From the NCBI RefSeq assembly GCF_014137865.1, contig NZ_JACGWU010000001.1, positions 372,001 through 436,000 on the forward strand: 64,000 nt of DNA, read 5' to 3'. This document shows, piece after piece, positions 5,725 to 16,973 of this stretch. The position numbers were made by a program, and so were the translations under genes. Every line of letters starts with the position of its first letter. Within the stretch, counting starts at the first letter, position 1. Below the pieces are notes generated by a model. That model was not told the origin of the DNA and made no database searches. It worked only from the letters and a program-made list of their open reading frames with translations. The DNA is from Alpinimonas psychrophila (GTDB lineage Bacteria; Actinomycetota; Actinomycetes; Actinomycetales; Microbacteriaceae).

Positions 5725-6411
5725 ATGAAGGCAAGCGATCGCGCCTACCGTGTACTCCTGGCAGAAATCGTCGAGGGAACACTTGCCCCGGGTACTGTTC
5801 TCGGCGAAGTCGAGCAATCCACGCGCCTCGGTGTCTCCCGTACTCCTGTTCGTGAGGCGCTTTCACGGCTCGTCGCCGACGGCCTCGTCGAACCGCAAGC
5901 GGGCCGTGGCCTCATCGTGACCGAAGTTTCGCTCGACAATATTTCCGAACTGTACGAACTCCGTGAAGCCCTCGAAGAACAGGCAGCACGGCTGGCGGCT
6001 CAGCGGGGGAGCTCGAAGAAATTCCAAGCGCTCGCCGCAGCGTTCGATGACATGGCTACGCTCATTGATTCCGGACCGGATGGCATTCGCACCTACTACG
6101 ACCTCAACCGTCAATTTGATGAAGCCATCGATGCGGCGATTCAGAACCCGTACCTCGTGGGAGCGCTGCGCAACGTGCGCATGCACTTGGGGCGCGTGCG
6201 CCGCATCGCCAAAGACAACCCGCAGCGACTGCGCGAAGCTGCCCGCGAAACGCACCTCATTCTCGAGGCGATCATTGCTGGCGATTCCGCTTTAGCTGCG
6301 CACGCCACGCACGTTCATCTCCACCGGAGCCTCACTAATATTCGTGCCTCCGTTGCCCCACTTTTGACACAGAATGGGGTCACCGGATCCCAGAAAAGGA
6401 ACCGCCAGTGA
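5725..6411 (+). CDS. GntR family transcriptional regulator, FCD subfamily, of the propionate locus
   Basis: DNA-binding regulator of 228 residues. The N-terminal winged helix contains [17 protein letters not shown] near residues 33-50, the GntR signature. It is followed by an all-helical FCD effector domain with the metal/ligand His and Asp pattern around [11 protein letters not shown] and HATHVHLH. Start at ATG 5725, which has AAGGAG at 5713-5718; an earlier in-frame ATG would enter the promoter. It overlaps prpD by 4 bases (GTGA) and diverges from prpE, so it most likely senses a pathway metabolite such as 2-methylcitrate and controls both operons through the twin GTATAC palindromes. Effector not determinable here. 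Confidence 0.85.
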
Positions 6412-7931
6412 AACTGAATCACGTTCGCGTCTATCGCAGCGAAGAAACCCTGAACCGTGCCGACCAGCTGGCCTTCAAGATTGCGGAGGTCGCAGCCGAC
6501 CCCGTTGCCGTAACGGATGAGGTGACCGAGATGGTCATCAACCGCATGATTGACAATGCCTCCGTTGCAACGGCCTCCCTCACCCGCAAGCCCGTCGTGG
6601 CGGCTAGGTCGCAGGCGCTGGCGCATCCAGCATCCACCGGCGGTCACGGTGCCAACGTTTTCGGCGAAGGCCAGAACACAAGGGTTTCCCCCGAGTGGGC
6701 GGCCTGGGCCAACGGCGTTGCCGTGCGCGAGCTCGACTACCACGACACCTTCTTGGCCGCCGAGTATTCGCACCCCGGCGACAACATCCCGCCCATCTTG
6801 GCGGTTGCCCAGCACGTCGGAAGCACCGGCCACGATCTCGTTCGCGGCATCGCTACCGGCTACGAAATCCAGGTTGATTTGGTGAAGTCGATCTGCCTGC
6901 ACGAGCACAAGATCGACCATGTTGCCCACCTCGGCCCCTCAGCGGCCGCCGGGATCGGAACCATGCTCGGGCTGAGCCCCGAGGTTATTTTTCAGGCCAT
7001 CGGCCAGGCGTTGCACACCACGACGGCGACCCGCCAATCCCGCAAGGGCGAGATCTCCAGCTGGAAGGCGCACGCCCCCGCATTCGCCGGCAAGATGGCG
7101 GTTGAAGCCATTGACCGTGCCATGCGCGGCGAGACCAGCCCCACCCCCATATACGAGGGCGAAGATGGCGTCATTGCCTGGATGCTGGACGGCCCCAAAG
7201 CCGCCTACGAGGTTCCGCTCCCCGAACGCGGCGAGGCAAAACGCGCCATTCTCGACACGTATACCAAGGAGCACTCGGCCGAATATCAGGCCCAAGCCTT
7301 GATTGACCTCGCGCGCAAGCTGCACCGTGAACATCCTGAAATTGGGCAGGGGGAGAACGTGGCATCCGTCGTTATTCACACCTCACACCACACGCACTAC
7401 GTCATCGGTTCCGGCGCAAATGATCCGCAGAAATATGACCCCAACGCGAGCCGTGAGACTTTGGATCACTCGATTCCGTATATCTTCACGGTGGCGTTGC
7501 AGGACGGTGCGTGGCACCACGTTGACAGTTACACCCCCGAGCGCGCGAAGCGTGCCGACACCGTGGCCCTGTGGAACAAGACCACCACCCGCGAGGATGC
7601 CAACTGGACCAAGCGCTACCACTCCATTGACCCGGCGGAGAAGGCGTTTGGCGGACGTGTTGAAATCACCTTGACCAATGGCACGGTCATCGTGGATGAG
7701 CTGGCAGTCGCCGACGCGCATCCTCTCGGTGCCAAGCCGTTCTCCCGCGAACAGTACATCGGCAAGTTCCGCACCCTGGCCGACGGTGTTCTCGAGAAGA
7801 CCGAAATCGAGCGTTTCTTGGAGCTGGTTCAACGCTTGCCACTGCTGACGGCCGCCGACATCGGTGGCCTCACCGTCACCGCCAAGCCGGGGCTGCTGGC
7901 CGCCATTGCCACCCCGAAGGGACTCTTCTAA
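6408..7931 (+). CDS. prpD: 2-methylcitrate dehydratase (MmgE/PrpD family)
   Basis: Cytoplasmic enzyme of 507 residues that dehydrates 2-methylcitrate to 2-methyl-cis-aconitate, step two after condensation in the 2-methylcitrate cycle. Family features are the stretch [20 protein letters not shown] near residue 105, the helical segments that follow, and [17 protein letters not shown] near residue 222. GTG start overlaps the regulator stop by 4 bases; the TAA stop shares one base with the ATG of prpB. PrpD-type enzymes need no Fe-S cluster. No prpF or acnD-like gene is adjacent, consistent with a PrpD-only pathway. Confidence 0.93.
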
Positions 7932-8845
7932 TGTTGTATGCGACCCAGACTCCGGCCGAAAAGCGTCGCCTCTTTCGCGCGTCGCTCGCCACGGGCGAGC
8001 TCATCCAGATGCCTGGTGCTTTCAACCCGCTCTCGGCCCGGCTCATCGAGAGCAAGGGGTTCGGCGGGGTGTACATCTCCGGCGCCGTACTGTCGGCCGA
8101 TCTGGGGCTTCCCGACATTGGCTTGACTACCCTCACCGAGGTTGCCGGCCGCGCGGCTCAGATCTCGCGCATGACGGATCTGCCCACGCTGGTGGATGCC
8201 GACACTGGCTTTGGCGAACCCATGAACCTGGCGCGCACTGTGCAAACGCTGGAGGATGCGGGCGTTGCCGGACTTCACGTTGAAGACCAGGTCAACCCGA
8301 AGCGCTGCGGTCACCTTGACGGCAAGGTTGTCGTTGACGATGACACCATGATCAAACGGATTCGTTCGGCTGTCTCCGCCCGCCGTGACCCGAACCTTCT
8401 CATCATGGCCCGCACCGATATTCGTTCGGTTGACGGACTGGACGCCGCGGTCGAACGCGCCAAGAAACTGGCAGATGCTGGTGCCGATGCCATCTTCCCC
8501 GAAGCCATGAAAGACCTCAGCGAGTTTGCGGCCATTCGTGCCGCCGTCGATATTCCCGTTTTGGCGAACATGACGGAGTTTGGCAAGAGCGAGCTCTTCA
8601 CGAAGCAGCAGCTGGCCGATGTGGGCATCAACATTGTGATCTACCCCGTCTCGTTCCTTCGCCTAGCCATGGGCGCGGCAATGCGTGGCTTGGATGCCCT
8701 GCTGGAGACAGGCACACTGCAAAGCGTTGTTCCTGAAATGCAGACGCGCGCCGAACTCTATGAGCTTCTCGATTACGAGGCGTACAGCCAGTTCGACTCC
8801 TCTATCTTCAACTTCAGCCTCGACGCCCACGTGCGGCACGACTAG
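7931..8845 (+). CDS. prpB: 2-methylisocitrate lyase
   Basis: Isocitrate-lyase superfamily (phosphoenolpyruvate mutase fold) enzyme of 304 residues. It cleaves 2-methylisocitrate to pyruvate and succinate. Metal-binding DADTGFGEP lies near residue 90, and the catalytic loop KRCGH has Cys126. The length is typical of PrpB and far shorter than glyoxylate-cycle AceA. Start ATG shares a base with the prpD stop (TAATG), indicating translational coupling. Third gene of the gntR-prpD-prpB-prpC operon. Confidence 0.93.
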   Translation: MLYATQTPAEKRRLFRASLATGELIQMPGAFNPLSARLIESKGFGGVYISGAVLSADLGLPDIGLTTLTEVAGRAAQISRMTDLPTLVDADTGFGEPMNLARTVQTLEDAGVAGLHVEDQVNPKRCGHLDGKVVVDDDTMIKRIRSAVSARRDPNLLIMARTDIRSVDGLDAAVERAKKLADAGADAIFPEAMKDLSEFAAIRAAVDIPVLANMTEFGKSELFTKQQLADVGINIVIYPVSFLRLAMGAAMRGLDALLETGTLQSVVPEMQTRAELYELLDYEAYSQFDSSIFNFSLDAHVRHD

Positions 8846-8894
8846 GTTCGGTAGTTCGGGCTTCGCTTCACCTCTTGACGGATAGGGATTACGC

Positions 8895-10022
8895 ATGACT
8901 GACACGCAACCACAGATTTTCAAGGGCCTCGCCGGCGTTGTCGTCGATGTCACGGCCGTCTCCAAGGTCAACCCCGAGACGAACTCACTGTTGTATCGCG
9001 GGTATCCCGTGCAGGAACTCGCGGCGTCGAAGAGTTTCGAAGAGGTGGCGCTGCTGTTGTGGAACGGGGAACTCCCCACGGCAACAGAGTTGGCCGCGTT
9101 CACCGCAATCGAGCGAGCTTCGCGCGGCCTTGACCCCGAAGTCAAGCTCGTTATCGACGAGTTGCCGCTCACGGCGCACCCCATGGACGTGGTGCGCACG
9201 GCCGTCAGCGTTCTGGGCGCTCTGGATGCGACCACCGCCGACACGAGCCCTGCCGGAAACCTGGCCAAGAGCATGCTTTTATTTGCTAAGGTTCCTGCCG
9301 TGGTGGCGTACGACCAGCGCCGCCGCCACGGTGAGGATGTTATCGAACCCCGTGCCGATCTGGATTATTCGGCGAACTTCTTGTGGATGACGTTCGGTGA
9401 GGTTCCGGATGCGGTCGTCGTCGACGCCTTCCGCGTCTCCCTGATCTTGTACGCGGAGCACTCCTTCAACGCTTCCACGTTCACGGCCCGGGTGATTACC
9501 TCGACGCTGTCGGACCTGTACTCGGCAGTCACCGGTGCCATAGGGGCGCTCAAGGGAGCCTTGCATGGCGGGGCCAACGAGGCTGTGCTGCATATCTTCA
9601 CCGAGATTGGTTTCGGGCCGGATGCTGAGCGTCGGTCGAAGGAATGGCTTGCCGCGGCGCTCGCCGAGAAGCGCAAAATCATGGGCTTCGGTCACCGCGT
9701 TTACAAGAAGGGCGACTCGCGCGTTCCCACCATGCGCGACTCGATGGTGCGCCTCACCGAGTATTACGACCGCCCCGACGTTCTCGAGCTATACAACGGG
9801 CTAGAAGCCGCCATGACAGAACGCACCGGCATCTTGCCCAACCTGGATTACCCCTCGGGCCCGGCATTCCACCTGATGGGTTTTGACACCCTCACGTTTA
9901 CGCCACTTTTCGTGGCCGCACGTGTGACGGGCTGGACCGCGCATATCATGGAGCAGACCGCATCTAACGCTTTGATTCGCCCGCTGTCGGCCTACAACGG
10001 TGTGGACGAGCGCCACTTCTAG
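8895..10022 (+). CDS. prpC: 2-methylcitrate synthase / citrate synthase 2
   Basis: Citrate-synthase-fold enzyme of 375 residues that condenses propionyl-CoA with oxaloacetate. The catalytic elements are visible: HGGANEAV near residue 220, GFGHRVYKKGDSR near residue 263, and the catalytic Asp region (LDYPSGPAFHLMG) near residue 315. The short all-alpha form without the N-terminal extension of the hexameric TCA enzyme supports the PrpC assignment. It lies 49 bases after prpB and completes the pathway, with activation by the divergent prpE. Confidence 0.92.
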   Translation: MTDTQPQIFKGLAGVVVDVTAVSKVNPETNSLLYRGYPVQELAASKSFEEVALLLWNGELPTATELAAFTAIERASRGLDPEVKLVIDELPLTAHPMDVVRTAVSVLGALDATTADTSPAGNLAKSMLLFAKVPAVVAYDQRRRHGEDVIEPRADLDYSANFLWMTFGEVPDAVVVDAFRVSLILYAEHSFNASTFTARVITSTLSDLYSAVTGAIGALKGALHGGANEAVLHIFTEIGFGPDAERRSKEWLAAALAEKRKIMGFGHRVYKKGDSRVPTMRDSMVRLTEYYDRPDVLELYNGLEAAMTERTGILPNLDYPSGPAFHLMGFDTLTFTPLFVAARVTGWTAHIMEQTASNALIRPLSAYNGVDERHF

Positions 10023-10263: not shown

Positions 10264-10305
10264 TTGCACTCCAGGCGCGTAGCTCATATAGTGATCTAGT
10301 CATCT
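10264..10305 (+). promoter_or_regulatory. Promoter and HutC-type operator of the sugar operon
   Basis: The -35 TTGCAC (10264-10269) and -10 TATAGT (10287-10292) are separated by 17 bases. An imperfect palindrome AGTGATCTAGTCATCT (10290-10305) overlaps the -10; it has the TCTAG core and flanks seen in sites of HutC-subfamily GntR repressors such as DasR. The regulator at 11133 belongs to that subfamily, so it probably binds here and represses in the absence of the sugar effector. Confidence 0.6.
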
Positions 10306-10329
10306 AGAAGTTACTTGAGGGGATTGCAC

Positions 10330-11136
10330 GTGCCGACAAGATTGAAGCGGCGAGTTAAGCAGGCTAGGGCAGAACAACGTGGGTTGCTCGTTGGTTTCTT
10401 ACCCGCAGGTTATCCCACCCCCGCGGCGTTCACTGCAGCGGCCCATGCAGCCTTTAGTGCGGGTCTTGACGTGTTGGAGGTCAGCATGCCTGGCCCCGCG
10501 CCAGCTCTCGATGGACCTCTTATACAGGCAGCTGCGAGCCAGATCAGCCGAGGAATTACGACAGTTGCTGAGGCTCTCAAACTTGCAGCAGAAAGTAGAA
10601 ACTCGCCCGACGACACGATCGTGGCGCTCGCGTATGCCAGCACTTTCGACACAATGACTGTCGAGGATTTTATCGATGCCCTCCACCTAGCCGACATCGA
10701 TGCCCTCCTTCTTCCGCAGCATCCAGTCTCAGAACAACTGAGAATTGGCTTACTAGCAAAGTCTGTAGGTATTGAACCGTTTATTTTCCTGCATCTTGAG
10801 GAGGACCTCTCTAAATTAGCTGCCACGGATATCGAAGAGCCGGTCATTTATCTTCAGTCCTCTGACTTGCAGACTGGCGGAGAGTTTAATTCGGCCAAAG
10901 CGCTCGAGCGCCTAGACGAACTTGCAGCGGCATTTGGAGAAAAACCATATGCCGTGTGTGTAGGTTTCGGCGTTCGAGGGTTCAGCGAAGCGCAAACGCT
11001 AATGTCGGCTGGGGCAGATGGCGTAATTATCGGCACTCGCCTCGTAGCTGCAGTAGCTATTGATATTGATTCAGTGGTCGCAATCGTCGATGAGGTTGCG
11101 CCAGCCCTTGTCCGGCGCCTTGCGGTGGACGCATGA
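10330..11136 (+). CDS. Tryptophan synthase alpha-like TIM-barrel protein in a sugar operon
   Basis: Protein of 268 residues clearly related to TrpA. The segment LEVSMPGPAPALDGPLIQ aligns without gaps to the TrpA active site: Glu50 and Asp61 match the catalytic Glu49 and Asp60, while the SDP aspartate is replaced by Ala57. The phosphate-site region is also recognisable (VGFGVRG and VIIGTRLV near residues 215-240). There is no trpB or other trp gene nearby. Instead it is the first gene of an ABC transporter/kinase operon, so a role in tryptophan synthesis is unlikely. A retro-aldol reaction releasing a triose phosphate from a phosphorylated sugar is a plausible inference. GTG 10330 chosen because GAGGGG ends 6 bases upstream; a TTG at 10315 is an alternative. 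Confidence 0.75.
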   Translation: MPTRLKRRVKQARAEQRGLLVGFLPAGYPTPAAFTAAAHAAFSAGLDVLEVSMPGPAPALDGPLIQAAASQISRGITTVAEALKLAAESRNSPDDTIVALAYASTFDTMTVEDFIDALHLADIDALLLPQHPVSEQLRIGLLAKSVGIEPFIFLHLEEDLSKLAATDIEEPVIYLQSSDLQTGGEFNSAKALERLDELAAAFGEKPYAVCVGFGVRGFSEAQTLMSAGADGVIIGTRLVAAVAIDIDSVVAIVDEVAPALVRRLAVDA

Positions 11137-11981
11137 ACATTAGCCCGGGGTTGCCGTGGAGCCCCCAAAGAATTTCATTTAACCGTAACGACGGTACTCC
11201 CAAATATGTCGCTATTTCTCGAGCAATTGCTTCCGCAATTGTCGAGCATGAGCTCACGTCCGGCGAGAGCCTGCCGTCGCAAAAAGAGCTGGCAGAGAGT
11301 TTCGGAGTCACCGTGATGACTGTTCGTCAAGCCATTCAAGTCCTCATTGAACAGGGCCTACTGAGCGCCGAGCAGGGAAAAGGTACCTACGTTAGCGGGC
11401 GACCGTACCGATTACCACTTGGCCCCCTCTCAAGCTTTGCCGCGCAAATTGAAGCGAGTGGACGGACACTCCGTACAGAAGTGCTTGGTTACGCAGCAAT
11501 CGAAGTATCTCCAATCGAACAAGCACGCATGGGGCTTCGTACCCCGGAGGCATTCGAGCTCGTTCGACTTCGTTTTGTGGATCGCGAGCCCTTAGTTCTC
11601 CAAACCTCACTCTTGCCGCGCGAAATCGGTATCGGCTTGGATATTGCCGCGCTCAAGACCCGATCTCTATACGACTTGCTTTACTCTGATGCTGGTATCC
11701 GGATTGAGAGGGCAACCGAAACAATTCAGGCCACGAATCTTGACGCCGAGTCAGCTGACCTTCTCCGCAAGAAGGCTGGCGACGCTGCCCTCCTCAGTTC
11801 TCGGCTTACTTTCAGCATCGAGGGACACACCGTGGTCGATGACCGCGCCCTCACTGCGGGGAACAGTGTTGTGGTGTCCGCAGATCGTCGCGCCGACGAA
11901 CCGGGACTTCCCCTGAGACCTTCTCGTGATGTCGCGTCGGTACCAGACGTCTCCGTTCCATTCGTTCGGGGCCGACGTTAA
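11133..11981 (+). CDS. GntR family regulator, HutC/UTRA subfamily
   Basis: Repressor-type regulator of 282 residues. N-terminal winged helix-turn-helix at about residues 25-85 includes LAESFGVTVMTVRQAIQVL and GKGTYVSG. A UTRA ligand-binding domain follows (PLSSFAAQIEASGRTLRTEV onward). UTRA regulators usually bind phosphorylated or free sugars of the pathway they control. The ATG overlaps the stop of the TrpA-like gene by 4 bases. The likely operator is the TCTAG-core palindrome at 10290-10305, which would also make this gene autoregulated. Confidence 0.85.
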   Translation: MNISPGLPWSPQRISFNRNDGTPKYVAISRAIASAIVEHELTSGESLPSQKELAESFGVTVMTVRQAIQVLIEQGLLSAEQGKGTYVSGRPYRLPLGPLSSFAAQIEASGRTLRTEVLGYAAIEVSPIEQARMGLRTPEAFELVRLRFVDREPLVLQTSLLPREIGIGLDIAALKTRSLYDLLYSDAGIRIERATETIQATNLDAESADLLRKKAGDAALLSSRLTFSIEGHTVVDDRALTAGNSVVVSADRRADEPGLPLRPSRDVASVPDVSVPFVRGRR

Positions 11982-12012
11982 CCGTTTCAACACTTTGACT
12001 CTAGGGATGACA

Positions 12013-13527
12013 ATGAAGACAACCCCTCACGCTGAGGCTTTAGCAGCAGTGTTGACCACTAACTCAATCAGCAAGGACTACGGTCCCGTGCGGGTTGTGT
12101 CTGACATCAGTCTCGACTTATTGCCAGGAAGCATCCATGCACTTCTTGGTGAAAACGGCGCCGGCAAGTCCACCCTCATCAAAATCCTCGCCGGCATTAT
12201 CGCCCCCAGCGAGGGCTTTATAGAGATTGACGGAATGCCTCGCGAGCTCCGTTCCGTTCGTGACGGGCAGGCGCGAGGCATCGTCGCCCTTCCCCAAGAG
12301 CTCACTCTTGTCCCAACACTGGCGGCCGCAGAGAACATCTACCTTGGAATGCGACGGACTGGCTGGCCTGGAATTTCTAACCGACGTGGACTGGATCGGG
12401 ATGCACGCGTGCAGCTAGAACGTCTCGGCCAAGAGATTTCCCTCGACGTTCCAGTCGGAGAGCTTTCGGCAGTGCAACAAACAATGATTGCCCTGGCTCG
12501 AGCCATTGTGCGTGACGCGCGGGTTTTGATTCTCGACGAGCCGACTGCAGCGCTAACAGATGCCGAGACCGAGCAATTGTTCACTGTTCTTCGTGCACTC
12601 CGCGACGAAGGAACCGCAATTCTCTACGTGTCGCACCGATTGGAGGAGGTCTTTTCGCTTGCAGACACCGCCACGGTCCTCCGTAACGGCCACCACGTTT
12701 GGACGAAACCAATCAGCGAAACCAACACGAATGATGTGGTTGCGGCGATGATTGGGCGCGAACATGGACAAGTCTTCCCAGCGCGATCTACCAATGCAGG
12801 AATACCTTTGCTCGCCCTAAATAAGGTTCAAGGTCACCGTGTACGGGGAATCAGCCTAGAAGCGCGAGCTGGCCGGGTGCTCGGGATTGCCGGCCTCGCT
12901 GGGTCGGGACGAAGCGAACTATTGAAGATTATCGCAGGAGTTGAACGTGCTCAAGGGGGCTCGGTCCTGCTTGACGGGATTGATATTACCCGGCGCTCCC
13001 TTGCCGCCACGATGAATGCCGGAATTGTCTATGTGCCGGAAGAACGGCGGAGTCAGGGGCTTGTCATGAGCGATACTATCGAGGCAAATATTGCGCTCGC
13101 AAACTTGAGGTCGCTCAGCGTGGCTGGCGTCGCGCTTCGCTCTAGAGAGAGCGCAACTGCCAAACGTCGTGTGGCCGAGCTGCAGATCAAGACCACGTCA
13201 GTACGCCAGTTAGTTGCTGAGTTATCCGGCGGTAACCAACAGAAGGTCGTACTGGCCAAATATCTCGAGCGGGAACCAAAAATCTTGCTTCTCGACGAAC
13301 CAACCCGAGGAATAGACATCGGGACCAAGGCCGAAATCTACCAACTCATCCGTCGTTTAACTAACAACGGTATGGCCGTCATCGTTGTGTCGAGCGAGAT
13401 TCCAGAACTTCTCGGTATCGCTGACGAAATCGTTGTCCTCCACGAGGGACATCTGACTGAAATTGTCTCGGCTGATCAATCCTCCAACGAGTCCATCCTC
13501 CACCTTTGCTATAGGAAGCCAGAATGA
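12013..13527 (+). CDS. Sugar ABC transporter ATP-binding protein (RbsA-like, two nucleotide-binding domains)
   Basis: Cytoplasmic ATPase of 504 residues with two fused ABC domains, as in RbsA, XylG and MglA. First domain: Walker A GENGAGKST, then LSAVQQTMIALARA and LILDEPTAAL. Second domain: degenerate Walker A GLAGSGRSE, then intact signature LSGGNQQKVVLAKYL and LLLDEPTRGID. This asymmetry is normal in the family. ATG 12013 chosen because AGGG lies 6 bases upstream; ATG 12007 is possible. The stop overlaps the permease start by 4 bases. It powers import with the adjacent permease and binding protein. Confidence 0.9.
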   Translation: MKTTPHAEALAAVLTTNSISKDYGPVRVVSDISLDLLPGSIHALLGENGAGKSTLIKILAGIIAPSEGFIEIDGMPRELRSVRDGQARGIVALPQELTLVPTLAAAENIYLGMRRTGWPGISNRRGLDRDARVQLERLGQEISLDVPVGELSAVQQTMIALARAIVRDARVLILDEPTAALTDAETEQLFTVLRALRDEGTAILYVSHRLEEVFSLADTATVLRNGHHVWTKPISETNTNDVVAAMIGREHGQVFPARSTNAGIPLLALNKVQGHRVRGISLEARAGRVLGIAGLAGSGRSELLKIIAGVERAQGGSVLLDGIDITRRSLAATMNAGIVYVPEERRSQGLVMSDTIEANIALANLRSLSVAGVALRSRESATAKRRVAELQIKTTSVRQLVAELSGGNQQKVVLAKYLEREPKILLLDEPTRGIDIGTKAEIYQLIRRLTNNGMAVIVVSSEIPELLGIADEIVVLHEGHLTEIVSADQSSNESILHLCYRKPE

Positions 13528-14528
13528 TGACACTGTTCCCACCACTTCGTTCCCCAAAAACGAGCAAAAATCAGGGTGCTTTTCCACGAAAATCTTTCTT
13601 GTCGCGGCGGCTTGCGTCTTCAGGCACGCTAATCGGTCTTGTCGGACTGATCGCGCTCTTCGCGGTTCTGAGACCAAAGATTTTTCTCACCCCGCTCAAC
13701 TTCACGAACATCCTTGAGCAGATTGCAATTCTTGCGATGGTCGCGGCTGTGCAGACCATCGTGATGGTGGTGGGAGACTTCGATCTCTCCGTCGGCTCTC
13801 TTGCAAGCCTCGTTGGCGTAATTACGGCGCAGCTGCTCGTTGGTGGGATGGACCCAGTTTTAGCCATTTTTCTAGCGCTCTGCTCCGGCATTATTGCGGG
13901 CGCCATCAATGGATTTCTTGTGGCCTACCTGGGGCTGTCCGCATTTATTTCTACTCTCGCCACAATGACGTCATTCACAGGCTTAGCGCTACTCCTTTCG
14001 AATGGAACCACCGTATTCGGACTGCCTGACGCATTTATTTGGCTTGGCCAAGGCCGCGTTGGTCCGGTTCCTATGCCCGTAATCATTGCAGTCATTCTCG
14101 TTATCTTGGTCTGGTTCGTTCTATCAAAGACTGTCCTCGGAAGGAGCTGGTACGCCGTCGGGGGTAACTCCGAGGCAGCTAGGCTTTCGGGAGTCAACAC
14201 TAATCTCGTGCGTTTCTCAGCATTTCTTGCCTCCGGATTTGGTGCGGCGCTCGCAGGCATCGTCCTAACTGCGCGACTTGCTTCTGGTCACCCCTCGGCA
14301 GCCGACCCCCTAATGTTGAGCTCGATCGCAGCTGTTTTCCTTGGAATTACGCTTTCGCGCACCGGGCAACCCACCATCGGTGGAACTATTGTTGGCCTCG
14401 GCATCGTGGGAGTTCTGAACAATGGTCTTAACATCCTCCAGGTAAATAGCTACGTGCAACAGGTCCTTACAGGCGTAATTATTATCCTCGCAGTCAGCCT
14501 CAGCCTCTTCAGCAAGAAGCGACGATGA
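13524..14528 (+). CDS. Sugar ABC transporter permease (RbsC-like)
   Basis: Integral membrane protein of 334 residues with eight to ten hydrophobic segments of the BPD_transp_2 (RbsC/XylH) family. Recognisable features are FDLSVGSLASLVG after the second helix, AYLGLSAFISTLATM, and the coupling-loop region SWYAVGGNSEAARLSG near residue 210. A polar N-terminal stretch of about 30 residues precedes the first helix. Starts and ends with 4-base ATGA overlaps to its neighbours, so stoichiometric translation with the ATPase and kinase is expected. Confidence 0.9.
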   Translation: MMTLFPPLRSPKTSKNQGAFPRKSFLSRRLASSGTLIGLVGLIALFAVLRPKIFLTPLNFTNILEQIAILAMVAAVQTIVMVVGDFDLSVGSLASLVGVITAQLLVGGMDPVLAIFLALCSGIIAGAINGFLVAYLGLSAFISTLATMTSFTGLALLLSNGTTVFGLPDAFIWLGQGRVGPVPMPVIIAVILVILVWFVLSKTVLGRSWYAVGGNSEAARLSGVNTNLVRFSAFLASGFGAALAGIVLTARLASGHPSAADPLMLSSIAAVFLGITLSRTGQPTIGGTIVGLGIVGVLNNGLNILQVNSYVQQVLTGVIIILAVSLSLFSKKRR

Positions 14529-15997
14529 GTTCCCGAGGAATTGTGATCGCCGGCTTAGACTTCGGCACATCGAGCGTCAAGCTCGTGGTTGTAACTTCCG
14601 ACGGCGCAGTGCTTTTTCGCGCACAGCAGTCGTATCCCACCTTCGTTGGTGACAACGGTGAGGTAGAGCAAGACCCGGAGGACTGGTGGGAAGCCGCCAA
14701 GGCGGTGATGAGCAAGTGCCCATTAGCATCCGAGATCGCAGCCATTGGTCTGACAGGGCAGATGCAAAACCTCATCTTGGTCGATCACAAGAGTGCAATC
14801 CGTCCGGCGCTTCTCTATTCAGACACACGTGCAAGAGTTCAGCACGATCGCGTACATGCGGCGCTCCCAAATTGGGAGCGCGAGACTCTCAATGTTCAAG
14901 ACGTGACGAACGTAGCGGCCAAGTTTGCTTGGCTGCTAGACAACGAGAAGAATTCGATCGCCCGAGCAGAGAGTGCTTTCTTTAGCGCATCAGGATATGT
15001 CGCATGGCGGGCCGGCGGAATGGCGGCCTGTGATCTGACAACGGCCTCGACGACCGGACTCCTCGACGTTGGTAACCAAGACTGGTTACGATCGGTCCTT
15101 GAGGAGGTAGGCATCAACCGCAAGTTGCTTCCAGACATTGTCGGTTTAGTCCCAAACGATAACATCCTAGGAGTTGTGTCCGGGAAGGCAGCCGCTGAAC
15201 TGGGCGTGACCACTGGTATTCCAATTGTGCTCGCCCCGGGTGATGCTGCTTCCACTACGGATGGGCTCATCGGAAGCAGCCCGGGTGATGCCTACCTCTA
15301 TCTCGGAACGACCGGGTGGTTAGCTGCGGTAACTGAGACTATTCCGACAGCCCCGTCACCAATCCATACTCTGGCAATGCCAGGTTGGGAATCTTGGCTC
15401 CGTATTGGAGCTGTGCAGTCGGCCGGATCTGCCGCAGCCTGGGCTCGCGATATATTCCTTCCGGGACTTGATTTTCATTCCGTAGAGGCACGCATTGCTC
15501 CGCGTGTGCGTGAAATGCATGCACGTCCGCTCTGCCTCCCCGGAATTTCCGGAGAGCGTACTCCGATTCGCGATGGGGCGTTTCGCGGTGCATTTGTCGG
15601 GATCCACAAATTGACCGATGGAGTTGACTTTTATTTGGCGGTGCTCACAGGCATCGCAATGGGTCTCCGGCATGCTGCCGACGACATGGGCATTGGGCAG
15701 AACCGTATCCCGCTCGTCGGCGGTGCGGCAACATCTGAGGCTTGGCGGTGCATCCTCGCTGACGTTTTTGACGCAACCATAGTGACACATTCCGCTACCG
15801 ACCCGGGAAGCTGGTCAGCTGCCCGCTCGGCAGCAAATGCACTCGGCGTTCAGAATAATTTGCACCCATTCTTTACGCCGACCACCACCGACGTGAAAAC
15901 TACTCCCGCCGCAAACCGTTCAAACTACGACCCTCTCATCGCCGTCCACCGACCGCTTTATGATGCGCTCGCACCGACTTTTCACCAACTGGCCTGA
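14525..15997 (+). CDS. FGGY family carbohydrate kinase, xylulokinase-like
   Basis: Sugar kinase of 490 residues. The ATP-binding phosphate-1 motif LDFGTSSVKLVV is near the start. GLTGQMQNL stands at the position of xylulokinase GLTGQMHG, and GISGERTPIRDGAFRGAF resembles the second FGGY signature. An adenosine motif (PLVGGAATSEAW) follows near residue 400. It phosphorylates the imported sugar, most likely a ketose. The change of the GQMHG His to Gln suggests a substrate other than D-xylulose. ATGA overlap with the permease. No isomerase or epimerase is encoded in the operon, so the kinase product may be handed directly to the TrpA-like protein. Confidence 0.85.
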   Translation: MSSRGIVIAGLDFGTSSVKLVVVTSDGAVLFRAQQSYPTFVGDNGEVEQDPEDWWEAAKAVMSKCPLASEIAAIGLTGQMQNLILVDHKSAIRPALLYSDTRARVQHDRVHAALPNWERETLNVQDVTNVAAKFAWLLDNEKNSIARAESAFFSASGYVAWRAGGMAACDLTTASTTGLLDVGNQDWLRSVLEEVGINRKLLPDIVGLVPNDNILGVVSGKAAAELGVTTGIPIVLAPGDAASTTDGLIGSSPGDAYLYLGTTGWLAAVTETIPTAPSPIHTLAMPGWESWLRIGAVQSAGSAAAWARDIFLPGLDFHSVEARIAPRVREMHARPLCLPGISGERTPIRDGAFRGAFVGIHKLTDGVDFYLAVLTGIAMGLRHAADDMGIGQNRIPLVGGAATSEAWRCILADVFDATIVTHSATDPGSWSAARSAANALGVQNNLHPFFTPTTTDVKTTPAANRSNYDPLIAVHRPLYDALAPTFHQLA

Positions 15998-16040: not shown

Positions 16041-16973
16041 ATGAAGTTAAAAAGAACACTCACGGCACTGAGCTTGGCGACGGTCGCCAGTCTCATGCTG
16101 GCATCCTGTGCGCCCGGTGACGGCGGTGCAACAGGTGGAGAAAACGCAGTCACGGTCACCGTTATCACTCCCTATCTCGCAAATGCGGCAACCAAAGAAG
16201 TAATCGAACTCTTCAGTGCAGAAGGCGAGAAACTAGGCTGGCAGGTGAATGTCGTCGATACCGCGGGGGATATGAACAAACTCAACAGTGCCTTCCAAGA
16301 CGCAGCGGCTCAGAAACCTGACGCCATCGTGCTCGGGACAGGTGACCCCACCCAGATTTCACTGGGACTAAAAGCAGCGGCCGACGCTGGAGTGCCGGTT
16401 TTCTCGATCGATGCGGGCGAGGCCGACGGCATCGCAGCCAACGTAACGAGTGACAACACCGATCTCGGCGAACAAAGTGCGAACGCGCTCATTGAAGCTA
16501 TGGGCGGGCAAGGAGCCGTTGTCATGTTGACTCATGATCCTCATCCGGGCGTGCGGGCCCGAGCTGAAGGAGCTCGCAAGGTCTTCAAACAAGCAGGAAT
16601 TGAAGTACTCGAAGAAAAGCACGTCAACGTTCCAGGGCCCGTTGATGACGCTCGCACGTCAGTGCAGGACATCATTTCCGCTAGAGGCTCGGAAGTCAGC
16701 GGTATTTGGGCTGGCTGGGATGAACCTGCGCTCGGTGCAACTCAAGCAATTGACGCTGCCGGGATCACTGATATTTCGGTCGTTGGCGTAGATGGACAAG
16801 ACTTCGCAATTGCAGAAATTGAAAAAGGAGGACCGTTCGTTGCGACAGTGAAACAAGACTGGAAATCAATCTCAGCCAAGGTTGTCGCGTTGATATCGGC
16901 ACTCTTGTTAGACGGCACCCAGCCGGACCAAAAACAATACGAACTGCCAGGAACCCTAGTGACCAAAAAGTAG
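16041..16973 (+). CDS. Sugar-binding lipoprotein of the ABC transporter (RbsB-like)
   Basis: Substrate-binding protein of 310 residues. It has a signal peptide with positive start (MKLKR), hydrophobic core and lipobox LASC, so Cys23 should be lipid-anchored outside the membrane. The mature part has the periplasmic-binding-protein-like fold of the ribose group (VVMLTHDPHPGVRARAEG and VVGVDGQDFAIAEI). A stretch of AGAAAGG-type ribosome site precedes the ATG. It is the last gene of the operon, separated by 43 bases from the kinase, and is followed by a hairpin; binding proteins are usually made in excess over the membrane parts. Confidence 0.9.
   Translation: MKLKRTLTALSLATVASLMLASCAPGDGGATGGENAVTVTVITPYLANAATKEVIELFSAEGEKLGWQVNVVDTAGDMNKLNSAFQDAAAQKPDAIVLGTGDPTQISLGLKAAADAGVPVFSIDAGEADGIAANVTSDNTDLGEQSANALIEAMGGQGAVVMLTHDPHPGVRARAEGARKVFKQAGIEVLEEKHVNVPGPVDDARTSVQDIISARGSEVSGIWAGWDEPALGATQAIDAAGITDISVVGVDGQDFAIAEIEKGGPFVATVKQDWKSISAKVVALISALLLDGTQPDQKQYELPGTLVTKK

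Follow-up and report, generated by a model that had tools for sequence, protein, structure and literature searches.

A divergent TrpA-like protein as a candidate sugar-phosphate lyase in a sugar uptake operon of Alpinimonas psychrophila

The alpha subunit of tryptophan synthase (TrpA) requires neither a metal nor a Schiff base, since indole stabilises the charge, and indole-glycerol phosphate (IGP) contains a D-erythro glycerol phosphate. The plan of the Lsr (autoinducer-2) operon comprises a SorC-type regulator, a sugar ATP-binding cassette (ABC) transporter, an FGGY kinase, and a barrel enzyme. An excerpt of PMC11574760 gives 63.3% identity between maize BX1 and maize TrpA and names IGP as the substrate of BX1. 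In this study, we analyzed a 64,000-nucleotide stretch of the Alpinimonas psychrophila genome (contig NZ_JACGWU010000001.1, positions 372,001 to 436,000; hereafter, the window), in which a sugar uptake operon encodes a TrpA-like protein together with an FGGY carbohydrate kinase.

The analysis suggests, with about an even chance of being right, that this protein is a standalone TrpA-derived lyase that cleaves the kinase product by a retro-aldol reaction and frees glyceraldehyde 3-phosphate, a reading in which we infer both the reaction and the substrate. The operon would import a small sugar or a derivative of one, which the FGGY kinase would phosphorylate at a terminal carbon. The TrpA-like protein, without TrpB, would then split the phosphorylated sugar by retro-aldol, Glu50 serving as general acid-base in partnership with Asp61, to give D-glyceraldehyde 3-phosphate plus another small fragment; the position phosphorylated, the bond cleaved, and the products are likewise presumptive. 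Because IGP has D-erythro geometry, the substrate candidates are D-erythro 5- or 6-phosphates, which may include ketohexose 6-phosphates, 2-keto-3-deoxygluconate 6-phosphate, and 2-deoxyribose 5-phosphate. A first-pass annotation of this DNA had already proposed that the TrpA relative cleaves the phosphorylated sugar. That proposal is strengthened by a second TrpA in the host, the absence of TrpB, the retention of both acids, and a link to FGGY kinases in two phyla, whereas aldol cleavage and the identity of the sugar stay conjectural; it is the best available proposal, now with family support.

In a Pfam scan of the window protein (E <= 0.001), PF00290 was the sole family passing, at about 105 bits (105.2-105.5), with a match to PF00977 falling below the cut-off and no match found to known sugar-phosphate aldolases (classes I and II, KDPG, and DeoC). 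The AlphaFold model (predicted local distance difference test, pLDDT, 91.5; predicted template modelling score, pTM, 0.91) aligned to 6xnc_A by VIA-align with a Z of 31.4 and a root-mean-square deviation of 2.2 over 255 residues. All 50 matches listed by Foldseek were tryptophan synthase alpha chains or BX1, counting 2ekc, which Foldseek shows under a project title alone and which a separate listing gives as TrpA. The check for a true trpA elsewhere in the host genome found one at 238.7 bits (G000:C1:617457-618149), adjoining genes reading as trpB and lgt. As first annotated, the TrpA-like gene has no trpB partner; trpB was not found within the window. All seven other genomes checked (four orthologue hosts, Paenibacillus, and two Streptomyces) had two or three TrpA matches each.

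A DNA-pattern scan for the catalytic loop without Asp56 (E. coli TrpA numbering) over 84,980 species genomes yielded 24 loci: four orthologues, one Paenibacillus relative, two Streptomyces TrpA duplicates, 16 TrpAs without Asp56, and one chance match (L039). The window protein and its orthologues, which are 60-63% identical and occur in the Actinomycetota Microbacterium resistens, Leucobacter massiliensis, Tessaracoccus massiliensis, and Candidatus Leucobacter sulfamidivorax, are referred to as clade A. The complete operon is found in identical order in the first three hosts and thus, with the window, in four of the five clade-A loci. In Ca. L. sulfamidivorax, the operator-like site, the TrpA-like gene, and the GntR gene are kept and the transporter type differs, its binding protein being nearest SsuA (54.4 of 163.5 bits); this locus adds a second divergent TrpA-like protein, a different FGGY kinase, and a dehydrogenase-like gene. 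The second TrpA-like gene (L064 10392-11156) overlaps the FGGY kinase gene in the operon with the sulfonate-type transporter, and its product keeps Glu49 and Asp60 and has Met175 instead of Tyr175.

The relative from Paenibacillus sp. J5C2022, 27% identical, is encoded between the permease and the kinase of a similar operon. A search of 245 Paenibacillus-family genomes gave matches in 48 (E <= 1e-25), and the 11 loci matching at 7e-79 or better, the query's own included, constitute clade P. The remaining 37 matches, at 4e-30 or weaker, lay in the true-TrpA range, and four of them (L081-L084) were placed among TrpAs in the tree. Proteins of the two clades are 19-26% identical. All 11 clade-P loci share the order SorC-type regulator, binding protein, ATPase, permease, TrpA-like protein, and FGGY kinase, including L087, whose permease was absent from the gene calls and was found on later inspection; operon content is alike in clades A and P and the regulators are different. 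The TrpA-like gene was present in 11 of the 12 Paenibacillus-family genomes with a related kinase at E <= 1e-100.

An FGGY kinase gene was found at 16 of 16 TrpA-like loci versus 1 of 44 true-TrpA loci, and trpB at 0 of 16 versus 42 of 44. Because half of the control loci (22 of 44) are just about 3.7 kb long, the kinase control is weak and the trpB control sound. The lone true-TrpA locus with a kinase belongs to Nitratireductor sp. OM-1 (L020). On Nitratireductor plasmids (L017, L018, L020, and L023), a true trpB-trpA pair adjoins a related operon of kinase, binding protein, ABC, and GntR genes; the arrangement lies in one stretch in sp. OM-1 and across the origin of a circular record in N. 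rhodophyticola, and in N. kimnyeongensis trpBA and the kinase operon occupy the two ends of a record that is listed as linear. This adjacency may be either chance or a third link between TrpA and kinase.

Four family members were scored against the NCBI trpA model TIGR00262 (cut-off 102.35 bits). The window protein (89.7 bits) and the clade-A protein P0009 (80.4 bits) fell below the cut-off, and the clade-P protein P0007 (131.0 bits) and the divergent protein P0008 (104.0 bits) exceeded it. Since the single clade-P protein scored passes, databases may well conceal a catabolic family under the biosynthetic trpA name.

The window residues Glu50, Ala57, and Asp61 (codons 10477-10479, 10498-10500, and 10510-10512) correspond to Glu49, Asp56, and Asp60, and the catalytic-loop pattern around them had 0.00 expected matches in shuffles of the window. 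Glu49, Asp60, Ile64, Tyr102, Tyr175, Thr183, Gly184, Gly211, Phe212, Gly213, and Gly234 are kept in all 16 TrpA-like proteins (residue counts set aside L034, L055, L057, and L096). The catalytic acids and the phosphate-site glycines (G184, G211, G213, and G234) are therefore retained as previously described, and T183 with them. Lost in the family are the loop-2 residues Tyr/Phe54 (0 of 16) and Asp56 (2 of 16), as well as Asn104 (2 of 16); TrpAs not picked by the motif have Tyr/Phe54 in 26 of 28 and Asp56 in 28 of 28. Positions 54 and 104 of TrpA presumably contact TrpB. In a simulation study, as excerpted from PMC8187860, Asp56 hydrogen-bonds Tyr279 of TrpB.

Position 56 in clade P is Asn in four proteins, Tyr in two, Asp in two, and Arg, Ser, and Glu in one each. 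It is not Asp in 15 of 43 ordinary TrpAs compared, those 15 having been found by a pattern excluding Asp there, and ordinary TrpAs without Asp56 yet beside trpB occur in Halanaerobiales and Armatimonadota (L025, L028, L032, L033, L042, L047, and others); the Asp56-TrpB contact is therefore not universal. Ala57 was correctly noted in the first-pass annotation. Because position 56 varies both in clade P and among ordinary TrpAs, Ala57 is best read, from the alignment, as loss of a TrpB contact and not as a catalytic change. Both clades have also changed at other positions, with Ala99 in 15, Phe153 in 16, Gln177 in 15, Arg215 in 16, and His, Tyr, or Asn at 155 in 16 of the 16 proteins. Among the 43 TrpAs, Ala99, Phe153, and Gln177 were not found, Arg215 occurred in two, and position 155 was Ala (30), Thr (9), or Ser (4). 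Placed by the ends of TrpA strands and not by coordinates, these five positions probably line the pocket side.

The features of the operon and its promoter region are as follows, in window coordinates.

10287..10292, forward strand: -10-like box TATAGT, read by eye, immediately 5' of the operator-like site; the -35 match, TTGCAC, is weak
10295..10309, forward strand: operator-like site TCTAGTCATCTAGAA, presumed GntR site
10330..11136, forward strand: TrpA-like protein, 268 amino acids, candidate sugar-phosphate lyase
11133..11981, forward strand: GntR-type regulator with UTRA domain; neighbour 67-70% identical in all four other clade-A loci
12013..13527, forward strand: sugar ABC transporter ATPase (profile matches)
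13524..14528, forward strand: sugar ABC transporter permease (profile matches)
14525..15997, forward strand: FGGY carbohydrate kinase with GQMQ, LYSD, GDA, and LGTTGW motifs, under every NCBIfam FGGY cut-off
16041..16973, forward strand: sugar substrate-binding protein (Peripla_BP_4), final gene of the operon (profile matches)

The TATAGT box is absent from the list of a consensus promoter scan. The TrpA-like reading frame has a GTG start at 10330 with a GAGG-like ribosome site (read by eye), and an in-frame TTG at 10315 is the less likely start, given that the orthologues start close to the GTG. Three junctions (TrpA-like/GntR, ATPase/permease, and permease/kinase) have 4-bp gene overlaps. 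Gene order and the PF00290 match bear out the earlier description of a TrpA relative as first gene of a sugar uptake operon, and gene content agrees with it as well: a kinase is present, and no isomerase, epimerase, or classical aldolase was found among the operon genes. The interval given then ended with the kinase gene and has to be extended to the binding-protein gene. Genes reading by eye as prpD, prpB, and prpC (methylcitrate cycle) lie directly 5' of the operon (6408-10022), and genes reading by eye as rRNA methyltransferase, NAD kinase, and RecN lie 3' of it.

In all five clade-A loci, the site TCTAGTNNTCTAGAA precedes the called start of the TrpA-like gene by about 19 to 34 bases. The pattern was derived from those loci, and the test is its occurrence in whole genomes: an exact match was found once per genome in each of the five, at the TrpA-like promoter, in a scan that would miss degenerate operator sites. 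Provided that GntR binds this site, as we presume, the single exact match suggests a one-operon regulon, and the only enzymes of the window regulon would then be the kinase and the TrpA-like protein. A site with one mismatch (G000:C8:33291), near a gene reading as electron-transfer flavoprotein, was taken as chance because a reversed control pattern gave three sites in the host genome. The SorC-type regulator of clade P is nearest Bacillus DeoR (245.0 of 420 bits), the effector of which is deoxyribose 5-phosphate. This likeness is a weak hint, by analogy, at deoxyribose 5-phosphate, a D-erythro candidate.

The GQMQ, LYSD, GDA, and LGTTGW motifs are common to the kinases of clade A (except Ca. 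L. sulfamidivorax), clade P (5 of 11 kinases aligned), Nitratireductor, and the genomes G048, G882, and G416, with small variants (GHMQ, GSMQ, LYAD, IGTSGW, and LGGSGW). Xylulokinase-like rows of the same alignment have GQMH, LWND, and VGTSG instead, and PDB 3hz6, named xylulokinase, shares the motifs of the operon kinases. Neither the window kinase nor three further operon kinases tested reached an NCBIfam FGGY cut-off. With the best-scoring model, TIGR01312 (XylB; cut-off 380.25), the window kinase scored 247.5 bits and the kinases of clade P, Nitratireductor, and Ca. L. sulfamidivorax scored 343.1, 267.0, and 251.4 bits, respectively. The binding protein had one relative besides itself at E <= 1e-50 in 396 genomes of the phylum, in G416. 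Divergent from the related kinase operon of G416 (L113 14959-18999) is a second FGGY kinase gene, followed by genes reading by eye as acireductone dioxygenase, enolase-phosphatase, and glycerol-3-phosphate dehydrogenase; this set resembles a methionine-salvage-like route for a sugar.

The tree (proteins < 220 or > 330 amino acids and duplicates dropped, and L038, which runs off its contig, left out) joins clades A and P with support 96/85 and flagged long branches. In trees that held one clade at a time and dropped the second TrpA-like protein as well as L057 and L096, clade A branched between the TrpAs of actinobacteria and all others, and clade P came out at a fork that was not resolved. The trees thus leave open whether the clades had a single or separate origins. 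The extra TrpA copies without Asp56 in Streptomyces canus (L067 2519-3352) and S. halstedii (L057) group with Streptomyces TrpAs; the S. canus copy has genes reading by eye as cytochromes P450 at a distance of about 8 kb, and gene calling gave no gene in the S. halstedii stretch L068.

Public genomes queried with the window protein alone gave no match. No orthologue was found in one congener (E <= 1e-8) or, beyond the host itself, among 299 genomes of the host's family (E <= 1e-20) and the 396 genomes of the phylum (E <= 1e-24); the second match among the 299 (G158) is a true TrpA beside trpB. On plasmids, the window protein matched three records, all annotated trpA, of which two were examined. 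P0007 matched 116 plasmid records and P0008 20; among the matches listed, those examined from Halomonas, Nonomuraea, and Paracoccus were counted as true TrpAs. None of the loci opened after searches with the kinase and the binding protein was a further TrpA-like locus, and the open-access literature searched yielded no report of a TrpA-like protein encoded in a sugar operon.

Several observations weigh against a lyase. Related kinase operons without a TrpA-like gene occur in G048, G882, and G416, and tblastn of the G048 and G882 stretches found no TrpA-like remnant. Inspection of the alignment by eye showed neither a lysine nor a clear metal site that is conserved across the two clades, and a plain ketose would need some other stabilisation of charge because indole does that job in TrpA. 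Dak1 dihydroxyacetone kinase was not found in the host genome, which speaks against dihydroxyacetone as the second product unless the host processes it by some other enzyme. Taken as a marker of a split like that of fructose-6-phosphate aldolase, Dak1 lent no support, being present in 8 of 16 carriers; among non-carriers, it is present in 10 of 12 genomes of the host's family, 8 of 22 of the Paenibacillus family, and G882, and absent from G048. Finally, clades A and P share 6 of 18 derived residues, which lies within the range of control pairs of deep TrpA groups (0 to 0.75). Since these residues are no more numerous than in the controls, one origin or one substrate of the two clades is not proven.

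The three kinase operons lacking the gene, and the fact that the product of a ketopentose kinase enters central metabolism directly, also weaken the argument from a missing isomerase or aldolase. They fit the foremost rival, which we regard as unlikely though worth weighing: the kinase product, e.g., D-xylulose or D-ribulose 5-phosphate, goes straight into the pentose phosphate pathway, and the TrpA-like protein is accessory, clearing a side product or minor substrate. Xylulokinase as the best-scoring kinase model and xylA- and xylB-like genes that directly precede the operon at three of the 11 clade-P loci (L092 287-3118, L093 13452-16284, and L094 13415-16262) agree with this. However, the TrpA-like gene is retained in nearly every Paenibacillus-family genome that has the kinase, the GQMH motif of the aligned xylulokinases is missing from the kinase, and in the window the TrpA-like gene opens the operon just after the conserved site.

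The kept acid-base pair and phosphate site, together with the changed pocket-side residues, would equally suit an isomerase, epimerase, or other acid-base enzyme acting on a sugar phosphate without C-C cleavage, and other members of the barrel superfamily of TrpA isomerise or epimerise. Both acids stand at their TrpA positions throughout the family, however, and nothing speaks positively for isomerisation, so that this is improbable. Still less probable is a standalone indole-3-glycerol phosphate lyase making free indole, for which BX1 is the precedent of a TrpA paralogue functioning without TrpB (excerpt of PMC11574760) and with which the kept acids, Tyr175, and Phe212 agree; a sugar transporter and a kinase would be superfluous to that reaction, and positions 99, 153, 155, and 177 are unlike TrpA. 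The adjacency of the TrpA-like and GntR genes in all five clade-A loci, even where the transporter differs, would fit a sensor or a partner of GntR without catalytic function, but such a role is very improbable given the SorC-type regulator of clade P and the intact catalytic acids.

The TrpA-derived lyase stays the preferred reading. More doubtfully, bacteria may have recruited TrpA for breaking down sugars, and TrpB-free TrpA derivatives may constitute an unrecognised aldolase family, metal- and Schiff-base-free, acting on what an uncharacterised subfamily of FGGY kinases produces and perhaps arisen repeatedly (clade A, clade P, and the second protein of Ca. L. sulfamidivorax). If the lyase reading is true, these operons would offer a new way of degrading sugars, for which the kinase and the lyase make up a defined test of two enzymes, as well as a natural experiment on TrpA escaping the control of TrpB and accepting a new leaving group.

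Compared with known systems, the window protein resembles TrpA in its fold, catalytic Glu and Asp, and phosphate site, but differs in having no trpB nearby, in its lost TrpB contacts and changed pocket side, and in its place in a sugar operon. Like BX1, it is a TrpA paralogue, and BX1 acts without TrpB as the window protein is encoded without trpB nearby, but the two are only 21-22% identical (1tjr_A, fold alignments) and the window protein is encoded in a sugar operon. The window kinase is an FGGY kinase as XylB is and differs from it in the motifs given above. The clade-P plan matches that of the Lsr operon, except that its barrel enzyme is TrpA-like and not LsrF; the window and clade-P kinases reached only 82.8 and 123.3, respectively, of the 528 for LsrK, and the clade-P regulator reached 160.9 of the 486 for LsrR.

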